Shown here one piece after another: positions 4,614 through 14,333 of a stretch of 32,303 bases of DNA. The stretch's first letter is position 1, and each line of letters opens with the position of its first letter. The notes beneath the pieces are model-generated. The model had not been told where the DNA came from and searched no databases. It was given only the letters and a program-made list of their open reading frames with translations. Made by a program: the position numbers and the translations under genes. The DNA is taken from positions 1 through 32,303 of the forward strand of contig CADAHL010000016.1 in assembly GCA_902787755.1 (NCBI GenBank), in the 5' to 3' direction. This DNA is from Oscillospiraceae bacterium. GTDB taxonomy: Bacteria; Bacillota; Clostridia; Oscillospirales; Oscillospiraceae.

Positions 4614-5114
4614 ATGGATTTTCAGGACAAACGCTACGACGTGTTTCGGATGTTCAACGACCGCTGGGCTCTGGTCACCGCCGGAACCATCGGGCACTAC
4701 AACACCATGACCATCGCCTGGGGCAGTCTGGGCACGATCTGGGGCCCGCCCCACAGGGGAAAGCCCATTCTGACGGTGTACGTCTCCCCCGCCCGCTATA
4801 CCCATGAGTTTCTGGAGGAGAACGAGTACTTCACCGTCAGCTTCTTCCCGGAGGAGTACCGCGGAGATCTGAGTCTGCTGGGCAGCCGCTCCGGCCGGGA
4901 CGGGGATAAGGTGTCCCGGACCGCCCTGACGCCGGTGGCTCTGCCCCATGGCGTGGATTTCGCCCAGGCGGAGCTGACCTTCGTCTGCCGGAAACTCTAC
5001 GCCCACCAGTTTGAGAAGGACCGGGTCCCCCCGGAGGTGGCCGACTGGATCTACAGCCGGGTCCCGCCCCACACCATGTTCATCGGTGAAATCGAGGATG
5101 TGATCGAGCGATGA
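4614..5114 (+). CDS. Flavin reductase-like (FMN-binding split barrel) protein
   Basis: A 166-residue protein of the flavin reductase-like family, which binds FMN in a split-barrel fold and, in characterised members, reduces flavin or acts as a small flavoprotein. Visible family features are the N-terminal WALVTAG strand, TIAWGSLGTIWGPP (about 32-45), and a central VYVSPARYTHEFLEENEYFTV segment around the expected flavin site. No signal peptide or membrane segment is seen, so it should be cytoplasmic. The ATG at 4614 has GGGAGG 7 bases upstream. Its TGA overlaps the ATG of the macrodomain gene (ATGA), so the two are translationally coupled. The substrate is not readable from sequence. Confidence 0.82.
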   Translation: MDFQDKRYDVFRMFNDRWALVTAGTIGHYNTMTIAWGSLGTIWGPPHRGKPILTVYVSPARYTHEFLEENEYFTVSFFPEEYRGDLSLLGSRSGRDGDKVSRTALTPVALPHGVDFAQAELTFVCRKLYAHQFEKDRVPPEVADWIYSRVPPHTMFIGEIEDVIER

Positions 5115-5896
5115 GGACGACAGAAGAGCTGATCCGCTTTCTGATCCGCGAGCTGCTGGCACAGATGCCGGAATACCGCCGGGAGGCCGCCCGGGTGCCG
5201 GGCGATCCGGAGAGCCAGCGCTACCTGCTGCGCTGCCTGATGAACGTCTGGCCGCCGCAGGAACTGTCGGCGGCGTTTCTGTCCGCCCAGGATGAGCTGC
5301 TCGGCCGGGAGCGGGAGGAAAAGGGCGTGGTCCGGGTCCTTGATCTGGCTCCGATCCCCGGAGAGCCCCGGCTCGTTCTCTGGCAGGGCGACATCACCCG
5401 CCTGGACGCCGGCGCCATCGTCAACGCCGCCAACAGCCAGCTGCTGGGCTGCTTCCGCCCCGGGCACAACTGCATCGACAACGTGATCCACTCCGCCGCC
5501 GGGCTGCAGCTGCGTCAGGAGTGCGCCCGGATCATGCGGGAGCAGGGGCACGAGGAGCCCACGGGCCGGGCCAAGCTCACCGGAGCGTATAACCTGCCCG
5601 CACAGGCGGTGCTGCACACCGTGGGCCCCATCATCACAGGGCCCCTCACTGACCGGGACCGGGAGCTTCTGGCCTCCTGCTACCGCTCCTGCATGAGTCT
5701 TGCCCGGGAGCACGGGCTCCGGACCCTGGCCTTCTGCTGCATCTCCACCGGGGTCTTCCGCTTCCCCAAGCCGGAGGCGGCCCGGATCGCCGTCGAAACG
5801 GTGAAGGAGAGCCTTGCGACCGGCGGCCCGGAGAGGGTGGTCTTCTGCGTCCACGGAGAGGAAAACCGAAAGATCTATGAGGCTCTTCTGGGCTGA
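5111..5896 (+). CDS. Zinc-class macrodomain protein, probable ADP-ribosyl hydrolase
   Basis: A 261-residue protein with an N-terminal helical region (about 1-80) and a macrodomain (about 85-258). Macrodomains bind ADP-ribose; this subclass, known from Staphylococcus and Streptococcus, is linked to removal of ADP-ribose from proteins. The sequence shows GDIT (93-96), NAAN (105-108) and the zinc-class signature with C114, H119 and C121 in LLGCFRPGHNCIDNVIH, plus the phosphate-binding STGVFRFP loop (212-219). In known operons this subclass sits with a class M sirtuin and a lipoate-carrier protein; none is present here, and it is coupled instead to a flavin reductase-like gene. ATGA overlap with that gene fixes the start. 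Confidence 0.88.
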   Translation: MRTTEELIRFLIRELLAQMPEYRREAARVPGDPESQRYLLRCLMNVWPPQELSAAFLSAQDELLGREREEKGVVRVLDLAPIPGEPRLVLWQGDITRLDAGAIVNAANSQLLGCFRPGHNCIDNVIHSAAGLQLRQECARIMREQGHEEPTGRAKLTGAYNLPAQAVLHTVGPIITGPLTDRDRELLASCYRSCMSLAREHGLRTLAFCCISTGVFRFPKPEAARIAVETVKESLATGGPERVVFCVHGEENRKIYEALLG

Positions 5897-5911
5897 GTCC
5901 GGGCGTCATAA

Positions 5912-5958
5912 AAAAACCAGCTGCTTCCCCATTGCGTTTGGGGAAGCAGCTGGTTTTT
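5912..5958. terminator. Bidirectional intrinsic terminator
   Basis: A perfect 19-bp inverted repeat (5912-5930 and 5940-5958, 9-base loop) has an A run on its left edge and a T run on its right. It ends the macrodomain unit on the plus strand and the seven-gene operon on the minus strand, whose last stop codon is at 5973. Confidence 0.93.
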
Positions 5959-5972
5959 GTTTTCGGACTCTG

Positions 5973-8276
5973 TTATTTCGCGTAGGCGTAGTAATACGCA
6001 GACTGGTTGTAGACGTCCCCGAACAGGGCCATCACGTCGTCGTAGACCTGGCTGCCCGGGAAGCAGAGATGGCTGCTGACCCGGCGGTCCCGAACGGCGA
6101 TCACCTGGTCGCCCCAGTAGTGCAGGGTCACCACCGAGCGCTGGTCCACCGTGGCGTTGGCAAAGAACAGCATGCCGTCGGCGTAATACAGCTCCACCCG
6201 GTAGCCCGGCACCAGATCGTCGGTGTAGGCCAGACGATACCAGTCCATGTGGCTGCCGTCGTCCTTGTGGCGGTTATTGAAGGTGCTGCCCACCACGGTG
6301 ACCTTGTCCTCGTCGGAGTAGTACACGCCCTGGATCAGGTTCTCCCGCAGGGCGATGCCGTAGGGCGACTGGGGATCGCTGGGCAGCTGCAGGCTCCGGG
6401 GCGGCGCAGGCGTCGGCGTGGGCACCGGCGCAGGCGTCGGAACCGGGGTCGGGACGGGCGTCGGGACCGGCGTCGGGGCCGGAGTGGGCGCGGGTCCGTT
6501 CCAATAGAAGGAGGAGTCGTACAGGGGATCCATCTGATAATAGATGTATCCTTCGGTGGTAAAGTGCTGTTCGGCGGAGACAAAGCCGGTCTCGTCGCCG
6601 GTGAATCGGATCCGTCCGCCCTCCGCCGGGAAGGTCAGGATCAGCTCGCCCCCGGAGAAGACGTACTCGCCGTTGTAGCAGATGCCGCTGCGGTACTCTC
6701 TGGCGCTGAAGCTGCCGTTGGCCAGGAACAGGGCGTCATACTGATGATCCTGCCCGTCGCCGAAGTGCAGCGTCCAGTAGGTATCGGCCAGATCGATCGT
6801 TTCCAGCGTCTCTCCCGGGGCCAGGACCCGGGCAAGCGCACTCTTCATATCCAGCAGATTGGGCCCTCCGCTGACGGCAAAGTCCGCGGAATCCCGGATG
6901 ATGGCCTTGACCTGGGCTCCCGTGAGCCCGGGATCCGCCGCCCAGACCGCGGCGCACACGCCGGTGACGTAAGGCGCGGCCATGGAGGTGCCGTTCCAGA
7001 GCTCGTAGCCGTTTTCGGCCACACAGCTGTAGATCCGCACCCCGGGAGCGCAGACGTCCAGCCGGCTGCCGAAATTGCTGAAGCTCGCCAGGTAGTAGGA
7101 GCCGGCCCACTGCTCCGCCGCCCCCACCACCAGGATCCGGTCTCCCACCGGTCCGTCCTGGATGTAAGTAAACTCATTGCCCCAGCGGGCGTCGATGGAC
7201 TCGTTGCCGGCGGAGCTGACGAACACGAAGTCGTAGCCCTTGTCCAGCAGGCGGCCCAGCGCCGCTTTCACGGTCTCGGCCTGCTGCTCGTAGTAATACG
7301 AGATCATCCATTCGTCGCCCAGATAGGCGCCCATGCCGATGGATTCCACGTAGCCGATGCTGTAATTGATGGCCCTGGCGCCGCCGGAGGCCAGCTCCGC
7401 GATGGCGCTGAGGGTGCTCATCTCATTGGAAAAGCCCCACAGGGAGTAGGTATGGATCCGTCCGTCCTCCAGGACGCCGGACAGGCCAGCCCCATTGTTG
7501 TGGGCGGCGCCGATGATCCCGGCCACATGGCTGCCGTGGGACCAGGACGCGTCCCGCTCGGAATAGCGGTTGTAGATCTCGTTGTAATGGGTCTCCACGA
7601 TGTGGTCCCGCAGATCCTCGTGATCGGAGTCAAACATGGTGTCGATCACGCCCACCTGCACCGGACCCAGCTCATAGTTTTCCCAGCAGTAGGGGGCCTG
7701 GATGGCAATGGCGCCCCAGTTGCCGTCGTCCATCCCATTCCAGTCGGCGTCGCCCCAGGGATCGTTGGGATAGGCCTTCCCGCCCGGCTCCCAGACCAGC
7801 TCCGCCTGGGCCAGCTCCACCCGGGGATCCTGCCGCAGCTTTTCCGCCAGGGCGTTCAGATCCTCCAGGCCGGGAGCGTCCGGCGCGCTGACCTGATAGG
7901 TGTCGGTCAGGGGGATGTAGCCTATGATCTCCATCCCGTGGGAGGAAAACAGCTTCTCTATCCCGGCGTAGTCCACGCCCAGGGCGGATACCACGATCAG
8001 CCGGCCTTCGGAATAGCTCACGCCCCGGTCCGAGCCGATCCGGCTTTCGTCCACCGGGGCAAAGAAGCTCTCCTCCGGCGTGTGCCGATCGACCGGCTCC
8101 GGGCTGCTCTTCAGCAGCCGCCCGGCCAGAAATCCCACCAGTCCCAGGGCCAGAAGGATGCCGACGATCAGGATCGGGTCCCGCTTTCCCTTGTGTTTTT
8201 TCCCCTTTATCTTCGCCTCCGTCGGCACCGGGATCGGCTCCTGGTATTGATCGTTCCAGTCCTTCCAGTCATGCAT
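5973..8276 (-). CDS. Membrane-anchored subtilisin-family (S8) serine protease
   Basis: A 767-residue protein in five parts. Residues 1-33 are basic and cytosolic-looking. One membrane helix at about 34-55 (DPILIVGILLALGLVGFL) would hold the protein outside as a type II anchor. Residues about 90-165 resemble a subtilase prodomain. The S8 catalytic domain has Asp212 (VGVIDT), His247 (SHGSHVAG), oxyanion Asn358 (SSAGNES) and Ser431 (NGTSMAAP), so it should be active. Two smaller beta-rich regions follow, split by a Pro-Thr linker of PTPVPTP repeats (about 595-626). It is the last gene of the seven-gene operon, 17 bases after its neighbour. A role in cleaving exported operon products is inference from position; no cell-wall sorting motif is seen. 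Confidence 0.92.
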   Translation of the reverse strand: MHDWKDWNDQYQEPIPVPTEAKIKGKKHKGKRDPILIVGILLALGLVGFLAGRLLKSSPEPVDRHTPEESFFAPVDESRIGSDRGVSYSEGRLIVVSALGVDYAGIEKLFSSHGMEIIGYIPLTDTYQVSAPDAPGLEDLNALAEKLRQDPRVELAQAELVWEPGGKAYPNDPWGDADWNGMDDGNWGAIAIQAPYCWENYELGPVQVGVIDTMFDSDHEDLRDHIVETHYNEIYNRYSERDASWSHGSHVAGIIGAAHNNGAGLSGVLEDGRIHTYSLWGFSNEMSTLSAIAELASGGARAINYSIGYVESIGMGAYLGDEWMISYYYEQQAETVKAALGRLLDKGYDFVFVSSAGNESIDARWGNEFTYIQDGPVGDRILVVGAAEQWAGSYYLASFSNFGSRLDVCAPGVRIYSCVAENGYELWNGTSMAAPYVTGVCAAVWAADPGLTGAQVKAIIRDSADFAVSGGPNLLDMKSALARVLAPGETLETIDLADTYWTLHFGDGQDHQYDALFLANGSFSAREYRSGICYNGEYVFSGGELILTFPAEGGRIRFTGDETGFVSAEQHFTTEGYIYYQMDPLYDSSFYWNGPAPTPAPTPVPTPVPTPVPTPAPVPTPTPAPPRSLQLPSDPQSPYGIALRENLIQGVYYSDEDKVTVVGSTFNNRHKDDGSHMDWYRLAYTDDLVPGYRVELYYADGMLFFANATVDQRSVVTLHYWGDQVIAVRDRRVSSHLCFPGSQVYDDVMALFGDVYNQSAYYYAYAK

Positions 8277-8293
8277 AGCCCTCGTCCCTCTCT

Positions 8294-8743
8294 TTACCCC
8301 ATTCCCCGGTCCCGATCCGGCGCCCGGTCTCCCGATGCGTCGGGTCCTTCCGCGCCTGCGGCGTCGCCCTCGTAATCAAAGCTCCGGGCCGGAGCGGTCC
8401 CGGGCGCTGCCGCGTCCCCGGCGTCGCCCTCATAGTCGAAGCGCGCCTGTCCGGGATCCGGTTCCGCCGTCTCAAAGCCCTCCCCGTCCAGGCTCTCCCG
8501 CTGCTCCCGATCCAGCTGGGCCAGCTGCTCCCGGTATTCCTGATCGGCCCGGGCCAGAGCCTGCCGGTAGGCCTCCAGTCTGGCCCTCTTTTCCGAGGCC
8601 GTCAGAGTGGGATCGTTCCAGGTCTCCTCCGCCCCCCGGGCGTAGGCGTCCCCCAGATTCTGATAGCCCTGATGCAGGTCCGCACGCTCCCGGTCAAAAT
8701 CCCGACCCTCGGAGCGTCGGCTGCGTCCCAGTGTTCGTCTCAT
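8294..8743 (-). CDS. Small charged helical protein with two DYEGDA repeats
   Basis: No known family is recognised. The 149-residue product has a basic start, then a very charged, probably helical or coiled-coil segment (about 15-88, rich in E, R, Q, A and L), then an acidic Gly/Ala-rich tail. The tail contains FDYEGDA twice, with DYEGDA at 103-108 and 123-128, exactly 20 residues apart. The same peptide with the same 20-residue period fills the tail of the HNH-like protein of this operon. There is no signal peptide or membrane segment. The ATG at 8743 follows an AGAGGAGAG ribosome binding site. A second substrate, adaptor or chaperone for the locus are all possible. The gene is well supported by operon position; the function is unknown. 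Confidence 0.8.
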   Translation of the reverse strand: MRRTLGRSRRSEGRDFDRERADLHQGYQNLGDAYARGAEETWNDPTLTASEKRARLEAYRQALARADQEYREQLAQLDREQRESLDGEGFETAEPDPGQARFDYEGDAGDAAAPGTAPARSFDYEGDAAGAEGPDASGDRAPDRDRGMG

Positions 8744-8767
8744 AGCCGGTCTCTCCTCTCCGGGCGC

Positions 8768-9259
8768 TTACCAGCGGCGCGGGAACAGACTGCGGAAGAG
8801 CAGGCCCACCACCACGATGATGATCACCAGCGAGATGACCCAGGACAGCACCTGGGACAGGAACATGGTGATCTCATTCCGGTACACCACCGCCAGGGTA
8901 ATGGCGATGGCGATGGCCGCCAGGATCAGGATGATGTCCCAACGGATATGGAGCGGAGGACGGGGTGCGGACCGGGGTCCGGGATCCGGCTCCCAGCGGG
9001 TATTGGTCCTGGGCCCCCAGCTCTGTATCTCCGAGCCGCGGGTATTGTCCCGGGTGTTCAGGGACCGATCCCGTTCCGGATCGGGCTGGATCCAGCCGCC
9101 CCCTCTGCCGGGGGTCACAGGATCGCGCTGCCGGACAGGGGCGGGATCCGGGTAGGAGCCTCTGTCGGAGCTGTCCGCCCAGGCGCCCGCGCTGCCGCCG
9201 GAGTTGTCCGCCCAGGTGTCCTCGCTGCCGCCGCTCTTACTGTTGAAATCGTACGCCAT
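8768..9259 (-). CDS. Two-helix membrane protein with disordered N-terminus
   Basis: No known family is recognised. The 163-residue product has about 105 hydrophilic, Gly/Ser/Asp/Pro-rich residues, including two copies of a short motif around WAD (TWADNSGGS and AWADSS, residues 15-31), then two membrane helices (about 108-126 and 135-156) and a basic end FRSLFPRRW. The positive residues before helix 1 and after helix 2 suggest both ends are cytosolic, with a short outside loop. Such an arrangement would suit a small membrane partner of the neighbouring VirD4-like proteins, which themselves lack membrane helices; this is inference. The AGGAGG ribosome binding site overlaps the stop codon of the upstream gene, so translation is coupled. 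Confidence 0.82.
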   Translation of the reverse strand: MAYDFNSKSGGSEDTWADNSGGSAGAWADSSDRGSYPDPAPVRQRDPVTPGRGGGWIQPDPERDRSLNTRDNTRGSEIQSWGPRTNTRWEPDPGPRSAPRPPLHIRWDIILILAAIAIAITLAVVYRNEITMFLSQVLSWVISLVIIIVVVGLLFRSLFPRRW

Positions 9260-9270
9260 GTCTCTTCCTC

Positions 9271-10509
9271 CTATCCGTTGAATCGAACGATCGAATCATT
9301 TTCCATGTCGAAGAGGATCGCCTGATAGGTCCGCAGGGCCATCAGCTCCTCCGGACGGACCCGCTGCGCATCCGTATCCAGCCGGGTGGTCACCCCTTCC
9401 CGCTCCTCATGGTGGAGGATATCGAAGAGGCTCCGGGACTCATCATAGGTCCGCTCGGTAATGAGACGCTCGAAGGTGCCGATAGTTCCGGACAATTCCG
9501 CGGCCCGCTGAGCGGTGGGCTGCTTGAACATGACCATCAGGTCCATCCCGGCGGCCAGATCGTTGAACCGGTCCCGCTCCGTCAGCCCCACCACGTCCTG
9601 GCCGCTGACCACCACGCGGAACTGGTCGCTGCCCCGGCCGATCATCTTCAGCAGCTCGCCCTCCAGGCTCAGGCCGTCCAGCACCAGCAGACAGGGCTTG
9701 CCGTAGCTGTAGCGGAGCTCCTGGGTCAGATAGGGCAGCATCAGCTCCCCGTAGCTCTCCCGGACCTCCATCACAAAGCAGGCGCCGTTTGCCCGGCCCA
9801 GCAGAGCGTTGATGCCGCCCGCGCCGTTTCCGGGTCTCCAGCCGCTCCTGCTCGCCTCGTCCGCCAGACGGAGGACCACCGTCCGCAGCAGCTGTCCGGC
9901 CTCCCGGCCGCCGCCGTCCCGGGTGCAGCCCATCTCCGCCCAGACCTGCAGGGCCATATCCTCGTCCCGGGGCGAAACCAGGCTGAGAATGTACTCCCGC
10001 AGCTGGTTTGCGCCGAAGATGCTGCACAGCCGGTACAGGCCGCTCAGGCAGGGCTCGGCGCCGGACATCCGCACCGCCTGCAGATAGGCCCGGACCACTG
10101 TGTCAAATTCCGCGGGAATGCTCATGCCCCGGCTCCGGGCCAGGGTCTCCAGAGTATCCACGATCTGGGTGTCGTTCATCCCCAGCAGGGGCTCCAGGAT
10201 TGGCGAGCGCTGATCCACCAGCCCCAGGGGAGCCTGCCGGCCCAGGCCGGCCGCTTCCCGCCAGCAGTCCCGGGCCAGCTCCGCCAGACCGGTGTTTCCG
10301 TTGTGCAGCACGATCACCGGGACCCAGCCGATGGTGGCGGTGAGCAGATAGCGCAGGGGCTCATAGCGCTCCCCGGGCGTACCGCCGGTAATGAGGATAT
10401 TCTTGGGAACCCTGCCGCTCCAGAAGAAGGAGTTCAGATCCGCCGGGCCGCCCCGGCAGGAGCAGACGTTGGCCTGGCCCCGGTTGTATCTGTCAAGTCT
10501 TCTATCCAC
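9271..10509 (-). CDS. VirD4/TraG-like protein with degenerate ATPase motifs
   Basis: A 412-residue protein that appears to be a diverged partner of the neighbouring coupling ATPase. Where a Walker A would stand it has ITGGTPGERYEP (about 40-51), which lacks the GK[ST] core. A Walker B-like CLLVLDGLSL keeps the aspartate but not the following glutamate. The end, with MFKQPTAQRAAELSG and then QAILFDMENDSIV, resembles the closing part of TraD/TraM-recognition proteins. It is probably a structural, nucleotide-dead paralogue; this is inference from sequence. The GTG at 10509 is chosen because an AAGGTGGG ribosome binding site lies about 8 bases upstream and it overlaps the previous stop by 8 bases. 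A TTG at 10539 is the alternative start. Confidence 0.72.
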   Translation of the reverse strand: MDRRLDRYNRGQANVCSCRGGPADLNSFFWSGRVPKNILITGGTPGERYEPLRYLLTATIGWVPVIVLHNGNTGLAELARDCWREAAGLGRQAPLGLVDQRSPILEPLLGMNDTQIVDTLETLARSRGMSIPAEFDTVVRAYLQAVRMSGAEPCLSGLYRLCSIFGANQLREYILSLVSPRDEDMALQVWAEMGCTRDGGGREAGQLLRTVVLRLADEASRSGWRPGNGAGGINALLGRANGACFVMEVRESYGELMLPYLTQELRYSYGKPCLLVLDGLSLEGELLKMIGRGSDQFRVVVSGQDVVGLTERDRFNDLAAGMDLMVMFKQPTAQRAAELSGTIGTFERLITERTYDESRSLFDILHHEEREGVTTRLDTDAQRVRPEELMALRTYQAILFDMENDSIVRFNG

Positions 10510-11848
10510 GGTATTTGCCCACCTTCTCGTAATTATCAAACTGGAAGAGGAAGGGCTTCTCCTCGCCCAGGCCGATCACCGCCTGGCCCAGCCCCAGATT
10601 CATCTGATCCCACTCCTCCACGGTATTGCCGTCCCGCTCCCGGTGGAGGGGCTCGTTCAGATACCGGCTGGAGTAGACATAGGCCTGCAGGTTCTTTCCG
10701 AAGCGCCGCTCGATGTATTCCCGGGAGGAGCTGTCGTTGGTATGGAAGGCAAAGAGGCTGCCGAAGCCGGAGGCGATCACCGCCCCCTTCTCCCTGCCGT
10801 AGATATCGTACAGCTGGTCGATGCTCTGGATGCCCGCCACCACGCGCACGCCCTGGCCCCGGCCGAAGTTCAGCGCGTCGTCGATATGCTGCAGCTTGGG
10901 CAGGAGCTTGAACTCATCCGCCACCAGATAGACCAGGCAGTCCCGGTCCTCCCGGCCACGGCCCAGCGCCTCCTTCAGCGCCTGGTCCACCAGCAGCCGG
11001 TAGATCGGCGTCAGCGTCTCGCCCACGGACAGATCGTATTCCACGAAGATCTTCCGGGCCCCTTTCCCCCGGACCGCCCGGCGCATGGAAACTTCCCGGC
11101 CCGGCCGGCTGGAGGCGAACACACCAATAAAGTATTCGGAAATCATGCTGTTGAGCTCGCCGAACACGCCCAGGGCCTGGTTGGAGCTGCCATCGCCGAT
11201 GTAGCTGAGCAGGCTTCTGGTGTCCGGGTAGTTGGAGAAGATGCGCTCGTAGCTCTTGGGCCCATAGGCCTGCAGGGCCTCGGTGAGGCAGGCGTTGTTC
11301 AGCCGGGCCATCCATTGCTCCGGATGCCGCTGGGCCTGGCGCACGAAGTGCAGCAGGATCCCGGCGAACAGATCCCGGGCCGCGTTGCAGAAGAAGGGCT
11401 GGGTGCTGGAGCCCCGGTCGTGGAACAGGGCAGCCGAGAGCTCTCTGGCGTTCATCTTCACCGACTCCTCGTCCCAGCCGTCGGCCAGCAGCTCCTGAAA
11501 CAGGTTCCAGCTGTAGCTTTTCTGACGGAAGGCGCGGCTGTTGCCGATGACGATATCTCCCGGGCGGCCGAACTTCTCGTAGAACTCGCCCTTGGTGTCG
11601 AAGATAATGGCCACGTCCTGGGGCCGCATCGCCGCCTCCAGCTGTTCCAGGATGAACAGGAAGGTATTGGTCTTGCCGCAGCCGGACCCGCCCAGAAGCA
11701 GCAGATGCCGGGCGAAAACGTCCCGATCCACCGCAAACTCCCGTCCCCCGTCCAGGGTCTTGCCCGGAAAGCGCAGGAAGGGCTTCCCGGCCTTCGGCGC
11801 CGAGTTCTGCAGCACCCGGGAGCCGTAAATGATCTGTTCGTTCTGCAT
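10502..11848 (-). CDS. VirD4/TraG-like type IV coupling ATPase
   Basis: A 448-residue P-loop ATPase of the VirD4/TraG/TraD (type IV coupling protein) class, the enzymes that select DNA or protein substrates for type IV secretion. Evidence: Walker A GGSGCGKT (53-60), the family IIFDTKGEF motif (81-89), Walker B VYLVADEF (306-313, D311/E312), and the GIQSIDQLYDIYG sensor region (339-351). The usual N-terminal membrane helices are missing; the chain starts directly before the nucleotide-binding core, so it must be soluble or rely on a membrane partner. No VirB4, VirB6 or relaxase is in the window. It lies 12 bases after the HNH-like gene and overlaps its degenerate paralogue, all in one operon. 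Confidence 0.88.
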   Translation of the reverse strand: MQNEQIIYGSRVLQNSAPKAGKPFLRFPGKTLDGGREFAVDRDVFARHLLLLGGSGCGKTNTFLFILEQLEAAMRPQDVAIIFDTKGEFYEKFGRPGDIVIGNSRAFRQKSYSWNLFQELLADGWDEESVKMNARELSAALFHDRGSSTQPFFCNAARDLFAGILLHFVRQAQRHPEQWMARLNNACLTEALQAYGPKSYERIFSNYPDTRSLLSYIGDGSSNQALGVFGELNSMISEYFIGVFASSRPGREVSMRRAVRGKGARKIFVEYDLSVGETLTPIYRLLVDQALKEALGRGREDRDCLVYLVADEFKLLPKLQHIDDALNFGRGQGVRVVAGIQSIDQLYDIYGREKGAVIASGFGSLFAFHTNDSSSREYIERRFGKNLQAYVYSSRYLNEPLHRERDGNTVEEWDQMNLGLGQAVIGLGEEKPFLFQFDNYEKVGKYRG

Positions 11849-11860
11849 GCCGCTCTCTCC

Positions 11861-12901
11861 TTATTCCATCGACTCTCCGCCGCCGCTGCCGCTGTCCATG
11901 CCGCCGCTGCTGCCGCTGTCCATGCCGCCGCCGGAATCCTGCCCGGCGCTCTCGCCGGAGGACGCGGCGTCCCCCTCGTAGGAGGAACCCAGGTCCTCGC
12001 CTTCCCCGGAGGAGGTCTCCGCCCCCGCGGCGTCCCCCTCATAGCCGGCCGCCGGATCCTCGGTCACTTCGGTGCTCTCCCTCTCGGAAGCGTCCCCTTC
12101 GTAGTCCGCTGCCAGGTCTTCGGTCTCCACGGTACTCTCCGTCTCCGAAGCGTCCCCCTCGTAGTCGGACGCCAGATCCTCGGCCGCTTCGGTACTCTCC
12201 GCCTCCGAAGCATCCCCTTCGTAATCGGACGCCAGATCCTCGGTCTCTGTGGCACTCTCCGCCTCGGTCTCTCCGGCGGTCTCTTCCGTCTGGCTTTCGC
12301 CCGCTTCCGTCGTTTCCTCCCCGGTCTCTCCGGCAGCCTCCTCCGTCAGAGCTTCGCTCTTCTGAGAGCCGCTCCCGTACTCGTCGGACAGCTCGCTGCT
12401 GTTGGCGATCTCCTCGGAGTACTCGCTGTGGAAGTCATAGTCCACGTTGCGGTTCTTGACGTATTTGCCGTCGCTCTCCCGCTGGGAGTACAGGCCGATC
12501 TCGTCGTTGAGGTTTTTGGCGTAGGGATCGCTCAGCTCGTTTGCCTCCGGCGGCGTGGGGCCCTGATCCCCGAAGTCGCTCATCTCGCCGGTATTCGGAT
12601 CGTAGTAGCCGTTGGTCTCGTTGTGAAAATCCCCCCGGTGGGCTCCTTCAAAGTGCTCCTTTTCCGTGAGGAACTGAATGTTGTCCTTGTCTCCCGCGTA
12701 CTCCGGATGGGCGGTGGCGGACTTCATGTGCTGCCCCTCGTAGCCCTTGACCCGGCCGGTCTCCAGAAGCTCTTGCTGCTCCTGTGCAGACCAGTCCCGG
12801 GTGCCCCTGCCCTCCAGGACCAGCTGCTTTTCCCGGGCCCAGGCCTGGCGTACCGCCCGGCTGCGCTCCACTGTCAGCTGCTGTTTTTCCTCTTCTGTCA
12901 C
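11861..12901 (-). CDS. HNH-nuclease-like protein with acidic 20-residue repeat tail
   Basis: A 346-residue protein in two parts. The N-terminal about 110 residues resemble HNH/Endo VII-type nuclease domains of polymorphic toxins: basic helix RSRAVRQAWAREK, then GRGTRDWS, LLETGRVKGYEGQHMKSA, AHPEYAGDKDNIQFLT and EHFEGAHRGDFHN. His58, Asn74, His83 and His88 are candidate site residues; the usual HH pair reads Q57-H58. The rest is acidic and probably disordered, with YEGDA at 227, 247, 267, 287 and 308 and a Gly/Ser/Met end. The start is GTG at 12901, 3 bases after the SUKH stop, with GGAGG about 10 bases upstream. A secreted nuclease effector is inference. A toxin domain at the N-terminus with a recruitment-like tail at the C-terminus is the order seen in type IV effectors. 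Confidence 0.75.
   Translation of the reverse strand: MTEEEKQQLTVERSRAVRQAWAREKQLVLEGRGTRDWSAQEQQELLETGRVKGYEGQHMKSATAHPEYAGDKDNIQFLTEKEHFEGAHRGDFHNETNGYYDPNTGEMSDFGDQGPTPPEANELSDPYAKNLNDEIGLYSQRESDGKYVKNRNVDYDFHSEYSEEIANSSELSDEYGSGSQKSEALTEEAAGETGEETTEAGESQTEETAGETEAESATETEDLASDYEGDASEAESTEAAEDLASDYEGDASETESTVETEDLAADYEGDASERESTEVTEDPAAGYEGDAAGAETSSGEGEDLGSSYEGDAASSGESAGQDSGGGMDSGSSGGMDSGSGGGESME
11966..12241 (-). repeat. 60-bp coding tandem repeat (DYEGDA units)
   Basis: About 4.5 units of a 60-bp direct repeat encode EDLASDYEGDASE-type 20-residue blocks. The first four YEGDA cores are exactly 20 residues apart and the fifth is 21. DNA identity is high between the first three units and falls towards the end, as expected for a locally expanding coding repeat. 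Confidence 0.9.
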
Positions 12902-12904
12902 GGT

Positions 12905-13333
12905 TCAGTCCTCCATCTCCGCCACCAGCTGCCGCCCGATGGCGATCTCCTCGGTCAGCCAGGAAGCCAGGCTGTCCCAGCGCCGGAACTCGCAGTCCCG
13001 CTCATGGTCCCATTGGATCACCTGGCAGGGAGGCCGGAGCTTCAGGCAGATCAGATCCCCGAAATTTTCCTTGGCAATGACCATGGCGTCCGATGGCAGC
13101 CGAAACCGGGCCCGGTGCTCCGGATTGTTGGCCCATTTCAGATTCTGCTCCCCGGACAGGCCGTAGATCACCGTGCCGGGGACGTAGATCTCGCCGCCGT
13201 TGAAGCAGTCCAGCAGCTCCCGCAGCTGGGACGGGAGCCGGTCATAGGCCCCTGTTCTCTTCACAGGCGCGGCCAGGTCCATACAAGCCGCGTCCTTCTG
13301 CAGCTCCTCATATAGTTCCCGGATCGTCTTCAT
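12905..13333 (-). CDS. SUKH (SMI1/KNR4-like) immunity-type protein
   Basis: A 142-residue cytoplasmic protein of the SUKH superfamily, a common class of immunity protein to secreted nuclease toxins. Family marks in order: LPSQLRELLDCFNGGEIYVP (33-52), YGLSGEQ, DAMVIAKENFGDLICLKL (82-99), VIQWDHERD (105-113) and a final SLASWLTEEI helix. ATG 13333 is chosen as the start. The in-frame ATG at 13366 sits about 5 bases after the -10 box, at or before the expected transcript start, and has no ribosome binding site, while 13333 has AAGGGG about 9 bases upstream. It is the first gene of the operon, directly before the HNH-like gene, so it is the likely antitoxin of that pair. Most toxin-immunity pairs have the toxin first; here the order is reversed. 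Confidence 0.85.
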   Translation of the reverse strand: MKTIRELYEELQKDAACMDLAAPVKRTGAYDRLPSQLRELLDCFNGGEIYVPGTVIYGLSGEQNLKWANNPEHRARFRLPSDAMVIAKENFGDLICLKLRPPCQVIQWDHERDCEFRRWDSLASWLTEEIAIGRQLVAEMED

Positions 13334-13371
13334 GGGCGATATCCCCTTTTCTACACATTTTTCCATATTGG

Positions 13372-13400
13372 ATTATACGTTTTCCCTTTCGATCTGTCAA
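13372..13400 (-). promoter_or_regulatory. Perfect consensus sigma-A promoter of the seven-gene operon
   Basis: On the minus strand TTGACA (13395-13400), 17 bases and TATAAT (13372-13377) match the consensus at all twelve positions. Transcription should start near 13365, giving a leader of about 30 bases before the ATG at 13333. All seven genes from 13333 to 5973 are spaced 24 bases or less apart or overlap, with no internal terminator, so one transcript is expected. Confidence 0.9.
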
Positions 13401-13450
13401 TGTCTCCGCCGTGGCCGGAGTCCATCTTCTCCCCCTTTGATTCCGCAGTT

Positions 13451-13468
13451 ATTACCCCACAGGGTAAT
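13451..13468. promoter_or_regulatory. Operator-like dyad in the divergent gap
   Basis: A perfect 7-bp inverted repeat, ATTACCC-CACA-GGGTAAT, ends 6 bases before the -35 box of the plus-strand cassette and lies about 50 bases upstream of the -35 box of the opposing operon. Size and symmetry fit a dimeric HTH regulator such as the one encoded at 13881-14333. That assignment is inference. Confidence 0.55.
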
Positions 13469-13474
13469 TTTACC

Positions 13475-13503
13475 TTGACTTTTTACGCCTCGCGGTGTAT
13501 AAT
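13475..13503 (+). promoter_or_regulatory. Sigma-A promoter of the small-gene/regulator cassette
   Basis: TTGACT (13475-13480), a 17-base spacer and TATAAT (13498-13503) precede the first small gene at 13555, whose AAAAGGAGGT ribosome binding site is at 13537-13546. It is divergent from the seven-gene operon promoter, with -35 boxes about 75 bases apart. Confidence 0.85.
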
Positions 13504-13554
13504 ACCACTGAAATTACTTCCCGGGGGAATCCCGGGAAAAGGAGGTCGGACGAG

Positions 13555-13704
13555 ATGGAGATTCGATTCAATGAGCTGAGCGGAGAGTGGGAGGTGCTGG
13601 GTCCCAACAGTCCCCTGAAGGACGGGGAGCCGATGCCGCTGTTCACCGCGGACTCGCTGGAGGCGGCCACGGCTTACGCGCAGGAGGAAGAGGGCTGGAT
13701 CTGA
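13555..13704 (+). CDS. Small protein of 49 residues, unknown
   Basis: Not recognised. The product MEIRFNELSGEWEVLGPNSP onward is acidic and ends AYAQEEEGWI. The pattern of EWEV, then PLF, then SLEAATAYAQ suggests a small domain of two or three strands plus a helix. A very strong AAAAGGAGGT ribosome binding site 8 bases before the ATG and a near-consensus promoter support expression. It opens a four-gene plus-strand cassette divergent from the VirD4-like operon. The longer frame from 13495 is excluded because it begins inside the promoter. Confidence 0.75.
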   Translation: MEIRFNELSGEWEVLGPNSPLKDGEPMPLFTADSLEAATAYAQEEEGWI

Positions 13705-13734
13705 GGATCGGGGCCGCGGAAAGGAGAAGTGCGG

Positions 13735-13884
13735 ATGACGAAGTATGATATTGAGCGCATTAAGGCTGTGGCCTTTGACGTATTGAGCGCCACCGCCGCC
13801 AGTCGGGAGGAGCTGCCCCAGATGCTCAGCGCCATGGGGCTGCTGATCCAGGTGCTGGAGGCGGAGCAGGAGCGCCTCCCATGA
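13735..13884 (+). CDS. Small helical protein of 49 residues, unknown
   Basis: Not recognised. MTKYDIERIKAVAFDVLSAT onward is probably all helical, with REELPQMLSAMGLLIQVLEAEQ forming the second half. An AAAGGAG ribosome binding site lies about 8 bases before the ATG. Its TGA overlaps the ATG of the HTH regulator (ATGA), so the two are translationally coupled. It is 30 bases after the preceding small gene. Coding is supported by spacing and coupling only. Confidence 0.68.
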   Translation: MTKYDIERIKAVAFDVLSATAASREELPQMLSAMGLLIQVLEAEQERLP

Positions 13885-14333
13885 CCGGAGCCCCGCTGGA
13901 GGGCTGCCGATTCGGCCGTCTGACCGTACTGGGTCCGGGCAGAGAACAGGTGGATCTGGACAGCCGAAGACGAAGATACTGGCGTACCCGCTGTGACTGC
14001 GGGACGGAGGGCCTGGTTCTGGAGGAAAATCTTCTCTCGGGCCGCAGCCGGTCCTGCGGATGTCGCGGCTTCCGGGACCGGACCGGTACGGAGCCGGAGC
14101 TCCTGTCCCCAGACCTGGGGTCGGCGCTGCGCCTGGCCCGGAAAAAGGCCGGGATCAGCCAGCAGGCGCTGGCCAGATGCAGCGGTCTGAGCCGACAGAG
14201 CATCGTCAGCTACGAACAGGGGCGGGTCCTGCCCAGCCTCCCCTCTCTGCTGCGTCTGACCGAGGCCCTGCGCATCGGACCGGAGGAATACCTGGGAAAG
14301 GAGGCGCGTGAAGATGATTCAGATCCCCGATGA
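13881..14333 (+). CDS. Cys4 (CxC...CxC) domain fused to XRE-type HTH regulator
   Basis: A 150-residue DNA-binding protein. Residues 1-65 hold FGRLTVLGPG, then RYWRTRCDCGTEG and SGRSRSCGC, with C38, C40, C59 and C61 placed to bind one zinc; this module is common at the start of phage HNH/AP2 homing proteins. Residues about 78-140 are a helix-turn-helix of the XRE/HTH_3 type: LGSALRLARKKAGISQQALA, then GLSRQSIVSYEQGRVLPSL. The nuclease part usual after the Cys module is replaced by the HTH. It is probably the local repressor, acting on the dyad at 13451-13468 and so on both divergent promoters; this is inference. The start is fixed by ATGA overlap with the upstream small gene. Confidence 0.82.
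   Translation: MTGAPLEGCRFGRLTVLGPGREQVDLDSRRRRYWRTRCDCGTEGLVLEENLLSGRSRSCGCRGFRDRTGTEPELLSPDLGSALRLARKKAGISQQALARCSGLSRQSIVSYEQGRVLPSLPSLLRLTEALRIGPEEYLGKEAREDDSDPR

Follow-up and report, generated by a model that had tools for sequence, protein, structure and literature searches.

The window analysed here is a stretch of 32,303 nucleotides from an Oscillospiraceae bacterium and makes up contig C16 of a draft genome (G000) that measures 2.54 Mb and is 92% complete. It contains an operon of seven genes, g1 to g7, on the minus strand (13366-5973), as do all features given below unless marked otherwise. The recurrent part of this operon, supported by its relatives in other genomes, comprises an immunity gene (g1), a toxin gene (g2), a VirD4-like ATPase (g3), a pseudo-ATPase (g4) and a small membrane protein (g5). 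We favor the reading that the operon is a polymorphic-toxin export system, which we regard as probable but well short of certain. The SUKH protein g1 would protect the producer from the toxin, and g2 would combine a toxic N-terminal nuclease with a long low-complexity C-terminal tail that acts as the export tag. The g3 ATPase would read this tail and drive the toxin out. The catalytically dead g4 would pair with the ATPase in one (mixed) ring and tie it to the membrane, where the g5 hairpin may be an anchor or part of a conduit. The g6 protein of the window carries this tag as well and may be a second substrate, while the subtilase g7 may trim the exported protein at the surface. The target would be a neighboring bacterial cell.

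The toxin and immunity genes are the first two of the operon. The g1 protein (12905..13366, probable start 13333) matched SUKH-1 (PF09346, 9.4e-12), and g2 (11861..12901) matched Tox-GHH (PF15636, 3.7e-21) over residues 3-78 (12668..12895). The Tox-GHH signature residues, tabulated in the part of the polymorphic toxin survey that lists them as W..E, G[HQ]H, NIxF and [DE]H (PMC3482391), were all kept in g2 as W..E, GQH, NIxF and EH. Residues 81-346 form an acidic tail (Asp plus Glu 29%, Lys plus Arg 3%) with five xYEGDA repeats (11966..12226; 60-base period, last step 63) and a Gly/Ser-rich end. The g2 protein is the predicted substrate. The pairing recurred in relatives of the operon. A SUKH-1 cluster gene stood directly ahead of a GHH/HNH toxin gene in 8/8 loci, window included, and all eight were SUKH-1 by Pfam. 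A second immunity-like cluster was directly ahead of the toxin in 6/6 loci (SUKH-2 by Pfam in three of the four tested), as was a Cys-rich protein in 7/10. This Cys-rich protein adjoined a HExxH toxin gene on the 5' side in L025, L027, L052, L081, L094, L097 and L099 (loci are given as L, genomes as G and contigs as C numbers) and is a possible immunity protein; it was seen without a HExxH pairing in three more loci.

The gene just before the ATPase frequently encoded an N-terminal domain followed by a low-complexity tail. Pfam was run on 66 tail proteins, picked by eye and including six added members of the HNH cluster that do not lie directly before the ATPase. Matches were found to Tox-GHH (9), Tox-HNH-HHH (6), LHH (1), NucA (1) and SprT-like (1), which means that a nuclease domain of the polymorphic-toxin kind was present in at most 17 of the 66. 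Another cluster carried HExxH in 16 of its 17 members. At least 48 of the 66 had neither a nuclease nor a SprT-like Pfam match, and in this respect the system, if real, would point to new toxins. NCBIfam gave scattered matches on the tail proteins, which were read as low-complexity.

The g3 ATPase (10502..11848) matched TrwB_AAD_bind (PF10412, 7.9e-38) and has an intact Walker A, GGSGCGKT (11669..11692), and a DEF motif. A search of solved-structure sequences with g3 also led to TrwB. Profile A1, built on six g3 relatives, found 146 relatives in a species-genome collection, and the best 80 of the 146 were examined. Before counts were made over 83 loci, L014 (a near copy of L013), L015 (identical to L089), L016 (identical to L075) and L017 (frame-shifted) were dropped. 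Walker A was kept in 83/83 of these VirD4s, and a transmembrane segment was predicted by a hydropathy rule in 0/83. The L017 gene (G439) has its VirD4 in two frames and is apparently a decayed copy.

The g4 protein (9271..10539, start codon not settled) gave no Pfam match over the curated cut-off and nothing under E 0.4 among solved-structure sequences. Its predicted fold is of the TrwB type and Walker A is lost. It is a degenerate VirD4/TrwB relative and recurs beside the ATPase. Clustering and a tree divided the ATPases into two halves, one of 46 loci including the window and one of 37. In the window half, g4 was directly downstream in 34/46 loci and elsewhere in the locus in 7/46, and the computed analysis showed the VirD4 ATPase and g4 to be co-inherited. 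The other half had g4 in 0/37 and a zinc-ribbon-like membrane protein in 29/37, which occurred in 0/46 of the window half; one of its four members tested matched GRAM weakly. Since g4 is limited to one half and the zinc-ribbon-like protein to the other, the two types of ATPase each come with a partner of their own. A g4 profile search matched 6/291 genomes, with a true g4 beside VirD4 in two (the window's own and G660); plasmids gave no g4 match. Four loci that had looked like cases of g4 apart from VirD4 (L121-L124) were rejected. Their proteins are longer or remote ATPase-like sequences (E 1e-12 to 1e-22), the P-loop is intact in L124 at least, and we read them as active relatives within the superfamily, not as g4. 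These four, from Clostridia, lie beside a winged-helix-like gene (by eye) and are possibly a plasmid or element module.

The ATPase family is rare and patchy. At a threshold of 1e-60, profile A1 matched 7/391 genomes of the class and 1/398 of a phylum sample, the window genome being counted each time. In an order sample, g3 had matches at 1e-10 in 9/295 genomes, own included, which were mostly remote, and in a family sample g4 matched 1/200 genomes, the window's own only. The 83 loci comprised 74 from Bacillota, two from Cloacimonadota, one each from Chloroflexota, Verrucomicrobiota, Bdellovibrionota and Actinomycetota, and three without a phylum (the window and two plasmids). Of the phyla other than Bacillota, all but Chloroflexota are represented by metagenome bins, which may be misbinned. 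Cultured hosts of g4-type loci include Anaerobacterium chartisolvens DSM 27016 (L028) and Lactococcus hodotermopsidis (L040). The plasmids (L012, L013 and L014, from Curtobacterium and Paenibacillus) are large, typed as non-mobilizable and carry a remote VirD4 of the g3 family. They also encode an acidic-repeat protein, which has 576 residues in L012 and 791 in L013, and, by eye, a PH-like membrane protein and PqqD-like proteins. Genes resembling integrases (cluster 22, six loci) and reverse transcriptases (cluster 37, four loci) were seen by eye near some loci. A phage origin was considered but not supported, as two viral-contig scans held no relative and a phage collection gave no more than two matches, both remote (22% identity).

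A membrane protein accompanies the ATPase and its twin. The g5 protein (8768..9259) has a polar N-terminal part and, by hydropathy, a C-terminal two-helix hairpin (8795..8941). The window ATPase falls within a clade of 12 (99% support by the Shimodaira-Hasegawa-like approximate likelihood ratio test, SH-aLRT), 11 of whose loci have sequence past g4, and in 11/11 of these a small protein with predicted membrane helices adjoins the ATPase or g4. A two-helix hairpin protein follows g4 in the window, L036, L049, L086, L093, L096 and L102. In L114 the protein after g4 is zinc-ribbon-like and has helices at its C-terminus, and in L024, L025 and L027 a multi-helix protein lies ahead of the ATPase. 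In L052, L055, L057 and L078, g4 itself ends in a two-helix segment. This placement of membrane proteins beside the ATPase or g4, together with the four loci in which g4 carries the helices, points to g4 as the link between ATPase and membrane.

The tail ends are biased in sequence. Gly followed by Met, Tyr, Ile, Val, Leu, Gln or Phe was found near the C-terminus of 37/66 upstream proteins vs 19/344 other clustered genes, and shuffled sequences reached at most 13 in 200 shuffles. This set of 66 remained after 13 of 79 upstream open reading frames (membrane or regulatory) were excluded; the unselected figure was 38/79. Independently of any pattern, closer ATPases had more similar tail ends, and this held also over 1327 pairs without detectable relation outside the last 60 residues (r -0.185, with 19 of 5000 permutations as extreme). 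Eleven of the eye-chosen 66 had been removed beforehand as short, truncated at a contig end or part of a broken gene. The mean end score was 3.9 for near pairs (n=87) vs -1.5 for far pairs (n=234). Tail ends thus co-vary weakly but significantly with the ATPase. Like ends with near ATPases include GIGY/GYGY (L070, L069), TGIE/TGIT/SGVT (L071, L063, L091) and GMEL/GMQM (L081, L068), with L084/L077 and L088/L085 as counter-examples. Tails ending in Arg occurred in 11/18 loci of the rest of clade I, 0/9 of the window's clade and 2/34 of clade II, and the sign of tail charge changed eight times on the tree (61 loci), but these counts are biased because 21 loci whose upstream open reading frame did not resemble a tail protein were left out by eye. 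Sharing of repeats with a second gene was rejected as a general rule, being clear in the window and weak in L048, while other shared 6-mers look like chance.

Several results weigh against an export system with the parts named above. Neither an outer channel nor a wall component turned up as a conserved part. The partners are not constant, with g4 missing in 5/46 loci of the window half (one with just 51 bases downstream) and the zinc-ribbon-like protein missing in 8/37 of the other. By hhalign, g4 aligned weakly with the window's own VirD4 clade (probability 4.5%, E 0.009). The hairpin sequences diverge, and homology was seen for some pairs only (window g5 and L036b, E 8.7e-4), in scores that membrane composition can inflate. 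The Gly-hydrophobic pattern was chosen after inspection of the tails and is missing in 29/66; in the window the g2 tail misfits and g6 fits, and among three later loci judged by eye GFGL and GYSE fit and SKGH does not. The correlation of tail ends with the ATPase is weak, the tailed protein of plasmid L013 comes after the ATPase and not ahead of it, and two host genomes had long matches to the type VII motor EssC below the cut-off (753 and 475 bits). Some loci also adjoin genes of intracellular conflict.

The last point bears on two readings in which nothing is exported. In the g4 half, vWA, kinase and PP2C genes occurred together in 17/46 loci and a transglutaminase in 24/46, which fits an intracellular toxin-antitoxin or signalling hub where these genes would control how a complex assembles, with the ATPase in it as an unfoldase or scaffold. 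We consider this quite unlikely. All four clusters are missing from the window operon and, as far as flanks permit, from 37/37 loci of the other half, so that the core can do without them. Membrane proteins recur in both halves. Other loci of the g4 half have DO-GTPase, HSP70, tubulin-like or radical SAM genes. The DO-GTPase cluster was in 6/46 loci, the window not among them, and the window operon has none of these eight kinds of gene. Since it lacks regulatory genes, the window operon can be regarded as the minimal core. The VirD4/g4 loci that lie among DO-GTPase, HSP70 or tubulin-like genes are L024, L027, L035, L036, L051, L085, L088, L092, L096 and L102.

Such genes belong to conflict systems in the part of Kaur 2020 consulted (PMC7159879), and they are one reason to consider intracellular defence, the chief rival. 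Here the VirD4-like ring would be a DNA pump or sensor, like HerA in anti-phage complexes, and the tailed nucleases and peptidases would be suicide effectors held by immunity proteins. The structural neighbors of g4 included HerA entries, some out of anti-phage complexes. In PADLOC, g3 gave weak partial matches to mad8 (1.4e-12) and HerA, while g7 matched a subtilase model (1.3e-22) and, weakly, IetS; a nuclease or Sir2 partner was not matched. However, PADLOC had no match for g1, g2, g4 or g5, and g7 does not belong to the conserved set. In the consulted portion of Zhang 2012 (PMC3482391), secreted polymorphic toxins have SUKH partners and toxin domains that can be exchanged. A DNA pump would seem needless for HExxH peptidases, and both the weak co-variation of tail ends with the ATPase and the lack of relatives in the two viral-contig scans speak against defence, which on balance we judge unlikely.

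Export by a TrwB-type ATPase remains our preferred reading. In a more specific form, it would be a previously undescribed class of toxin secretion, found chiefly in gut Clostridia. A ring of TrwB-type ATPase and dead twin would be docked on a two-helix hairpin, sometimes fused to the twin, and substrates would bear exchangeable N-terminal toxin domains and a tail of low complexity, often acidic, that closes with the code for export, Gly-hydrophobic-x-x or Gly-x-x-Arg. We advance this form tentatively, at somewhat less than an even chance. If true, gut Clostridia would have a further route by which to deliver interbacterial toxins, and of such routes little is known, to our knowledge, besides type VII. 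It would also mean that a coupling ATPase of the conjugation type needs no type IV channel to work, and it would offer an export code that is short and open to test.

The last two genes of the operon lie outside the recurrent part. The g6 gene (8294..8743) encodes a small protein with two DYEGDA repeats (8360..8437) and the C-terminus RGMG, and is a predicted second substrate or tail-sharing partner; like g5, it had no Pfam match over the curated cut-off. The exact DYEGDA code had five copies in the draft genome, three in g2 and two in g6, and a control with the reversed pattern had 0. Because the code is confined to these genes, g2 and g6 share a private tag. The g7 gene (5973..8276) encodes a membrane-anchored S8 subtilase (PF00082, 4.8e-41) with intact D/H/S motifs (VIDT, HGSH, GTSMA) and a mycosin-like match below cut-off (TIGR03921, 1.3e-22). 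A search of 86 further loci (E 1e-3) gave no relative of either g6 or g7, and for this reason both were rejected as core parts, g7 being a local addition.

The first-pass annotation had described seven closely spaced genes behind a perfect consensus promoter, encoding a SUKH immunity-like protein, an HNH-nuclease-like protein, an intact VirD4-like ATPase, its degenerate paralogue, a two-helix membrane protein, a DYEGDA-repeat protein and a membrane-anchored S8 protease. All of this was borne out. The seven open reading frames exist, the gaps from g1 to g7 are 3, 12, -38 (an overlap), 11, 24 and 17 bases, and a sigma-70 type promoter, TTGACA-17-TATAAT (13372..13400), matches 12/12 consensus bases. 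Three promoter-like sites with at least nine consensus matches lie in 5700-13900, vs a shuffle mean of 1.0. As the promoter ends only five bases ahead of the listed g1 ATG at 13366, the SUKH gene more likely begins with the ATG at 13333, preceded by AAAAGGGG. The annotation had asked whether all seven genes recur together, and as a set they do not. Of its minimal toxin-export idea, a conserved block of toxin, immunity and coupling-ATPase genes in which no type IV apparatus could be detected was supported, the seven-gene set was not, and export itself is what we infer. None of the flanking proteins scanned was unusual; they were a macro-domain protein, ribosomal protein S7, EF-G, EF-Tu, a CoA transferase and Phe-tRNA synthetase. 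The macro-domain protein-ADP-ribose hydrolase (5111-5896, plus strand; NF003163 over cut-off) is convergent with the operon end.

Since g3 belongs to the coupling-protein superfamily, the operon could be the remnant of an integrative conjugative element, and the first-pass annotation had set its proposal against an ordinary element with relaxase and VirB4 close by. The VirB4-type ATPase model (P-loop_TraG, PF19044) had 0 matches in the window genome, a draft that may miss genes, and a control matched in 7/14 genomes. The genome's one relaxase match (PF03432) opens contig C1 and so is not on the window's contig. Both results speak against a fragment of an ordinary conjugative element. With g4 and VirD4 co-inherited and Walker A intact throughout the family, we consider a remnant highly improbable. 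VirB4, VirB6, VirB8 and relaxase were not recognized among the 40 clusters common to at least four loci (partly by Pfam, partly by eye), and no VirB4 match lay on the locus contig for the six mapped cases (G000:C16, G258:C15, G470:C14, G660:C100, G787:C56 and G825:C1).

The operon might also be an adapter for another secretion system, either type VIIb or a distant type IV. Host genomes were searched for EssC and VirB4 in a set of 32, which represented 26 of the 80 loci and six others. A VirB4-type protein was over cut-off somewhere in 13/32, and near L016 (G470:C14), a VirD4-II locus with a zinc-ribbon-like partner, EssC-like pieces lie about 6-8 kb away, with one FHA-like part by eye; the same genome has a long EssC match just under cut-off. 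EssC was over its cut-off (778.4 bits) in only 3/32, not including the window genome, which reached just 113.9 bits over an FtsK-like part and had no full EssC match by the models used. VirB4 was unmatched in 16/32, own included, in drafts that may miss genes. We regard an adapter role as very unlikely. The seven operon proteins had no WXG or LXG Pfam match and no DO-GTPase or GAP1 match; the genome was not searched for WXG100/LXG or for DO-GTPase/GAP1.

Substrates of VirD4 bear C-terminal tails. The predicted substrates here are likewise tailed, and the type IV coupling proteins VirD4, TrwB and TraD are further resembled in the TrwB_AAD_bind domain and Walker A of g3 and the TrwB fold of g4. 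Unlike them, the g3 family has no predicted membrane-spanning N-terminus and a dead paralogue as partner, in a genome with no VirB4 match. Type VIIb systems (EssC, LXG toxins) are similar in their mostly monoderm hosts, motor of the FtsK/HerA superfamily and toxin with immunity, as well as in the mycosin-like S8 protease of the window, but the motor here belongs to the TrwB class and is paired with a pseudo-ATPase, and the genome has no EssC over cut-off. Polymorphic toxin systems share Tox-GHH and Tox-HNH-HHH toxins, adjacent SUKH immunity and exchangeable toxin domains (PMC3482391, in part). In contrast to these, the toxin here is N-terminal and the common part is the C-terminal tail, which reverses the known order. 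The export-table passages of that survey do not include such delivery genes, and 'VirD4' does not occur in the portion consulted. GTPase-centric conflict systems (Kaur 2020, PMC7159879, in part) have in common the DO-GTPase, HSP70, tubulin-like, vWA, kinase and PP2C genes beside some loci. They differ in that the window operon has none of these; neither 'TrwB' nor 'VirD4' was found in that text, 'HerA' stands in one reference title only, and the section consulted does not link VirD4/g4 loci to GTPase-centric systems. The first-pass annotation knew of no described system with this gene set, and we likewise found none in the open-access literature, although subscription literature could hold one. 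The operon could be placed in neither type IV nor type VII secretion.

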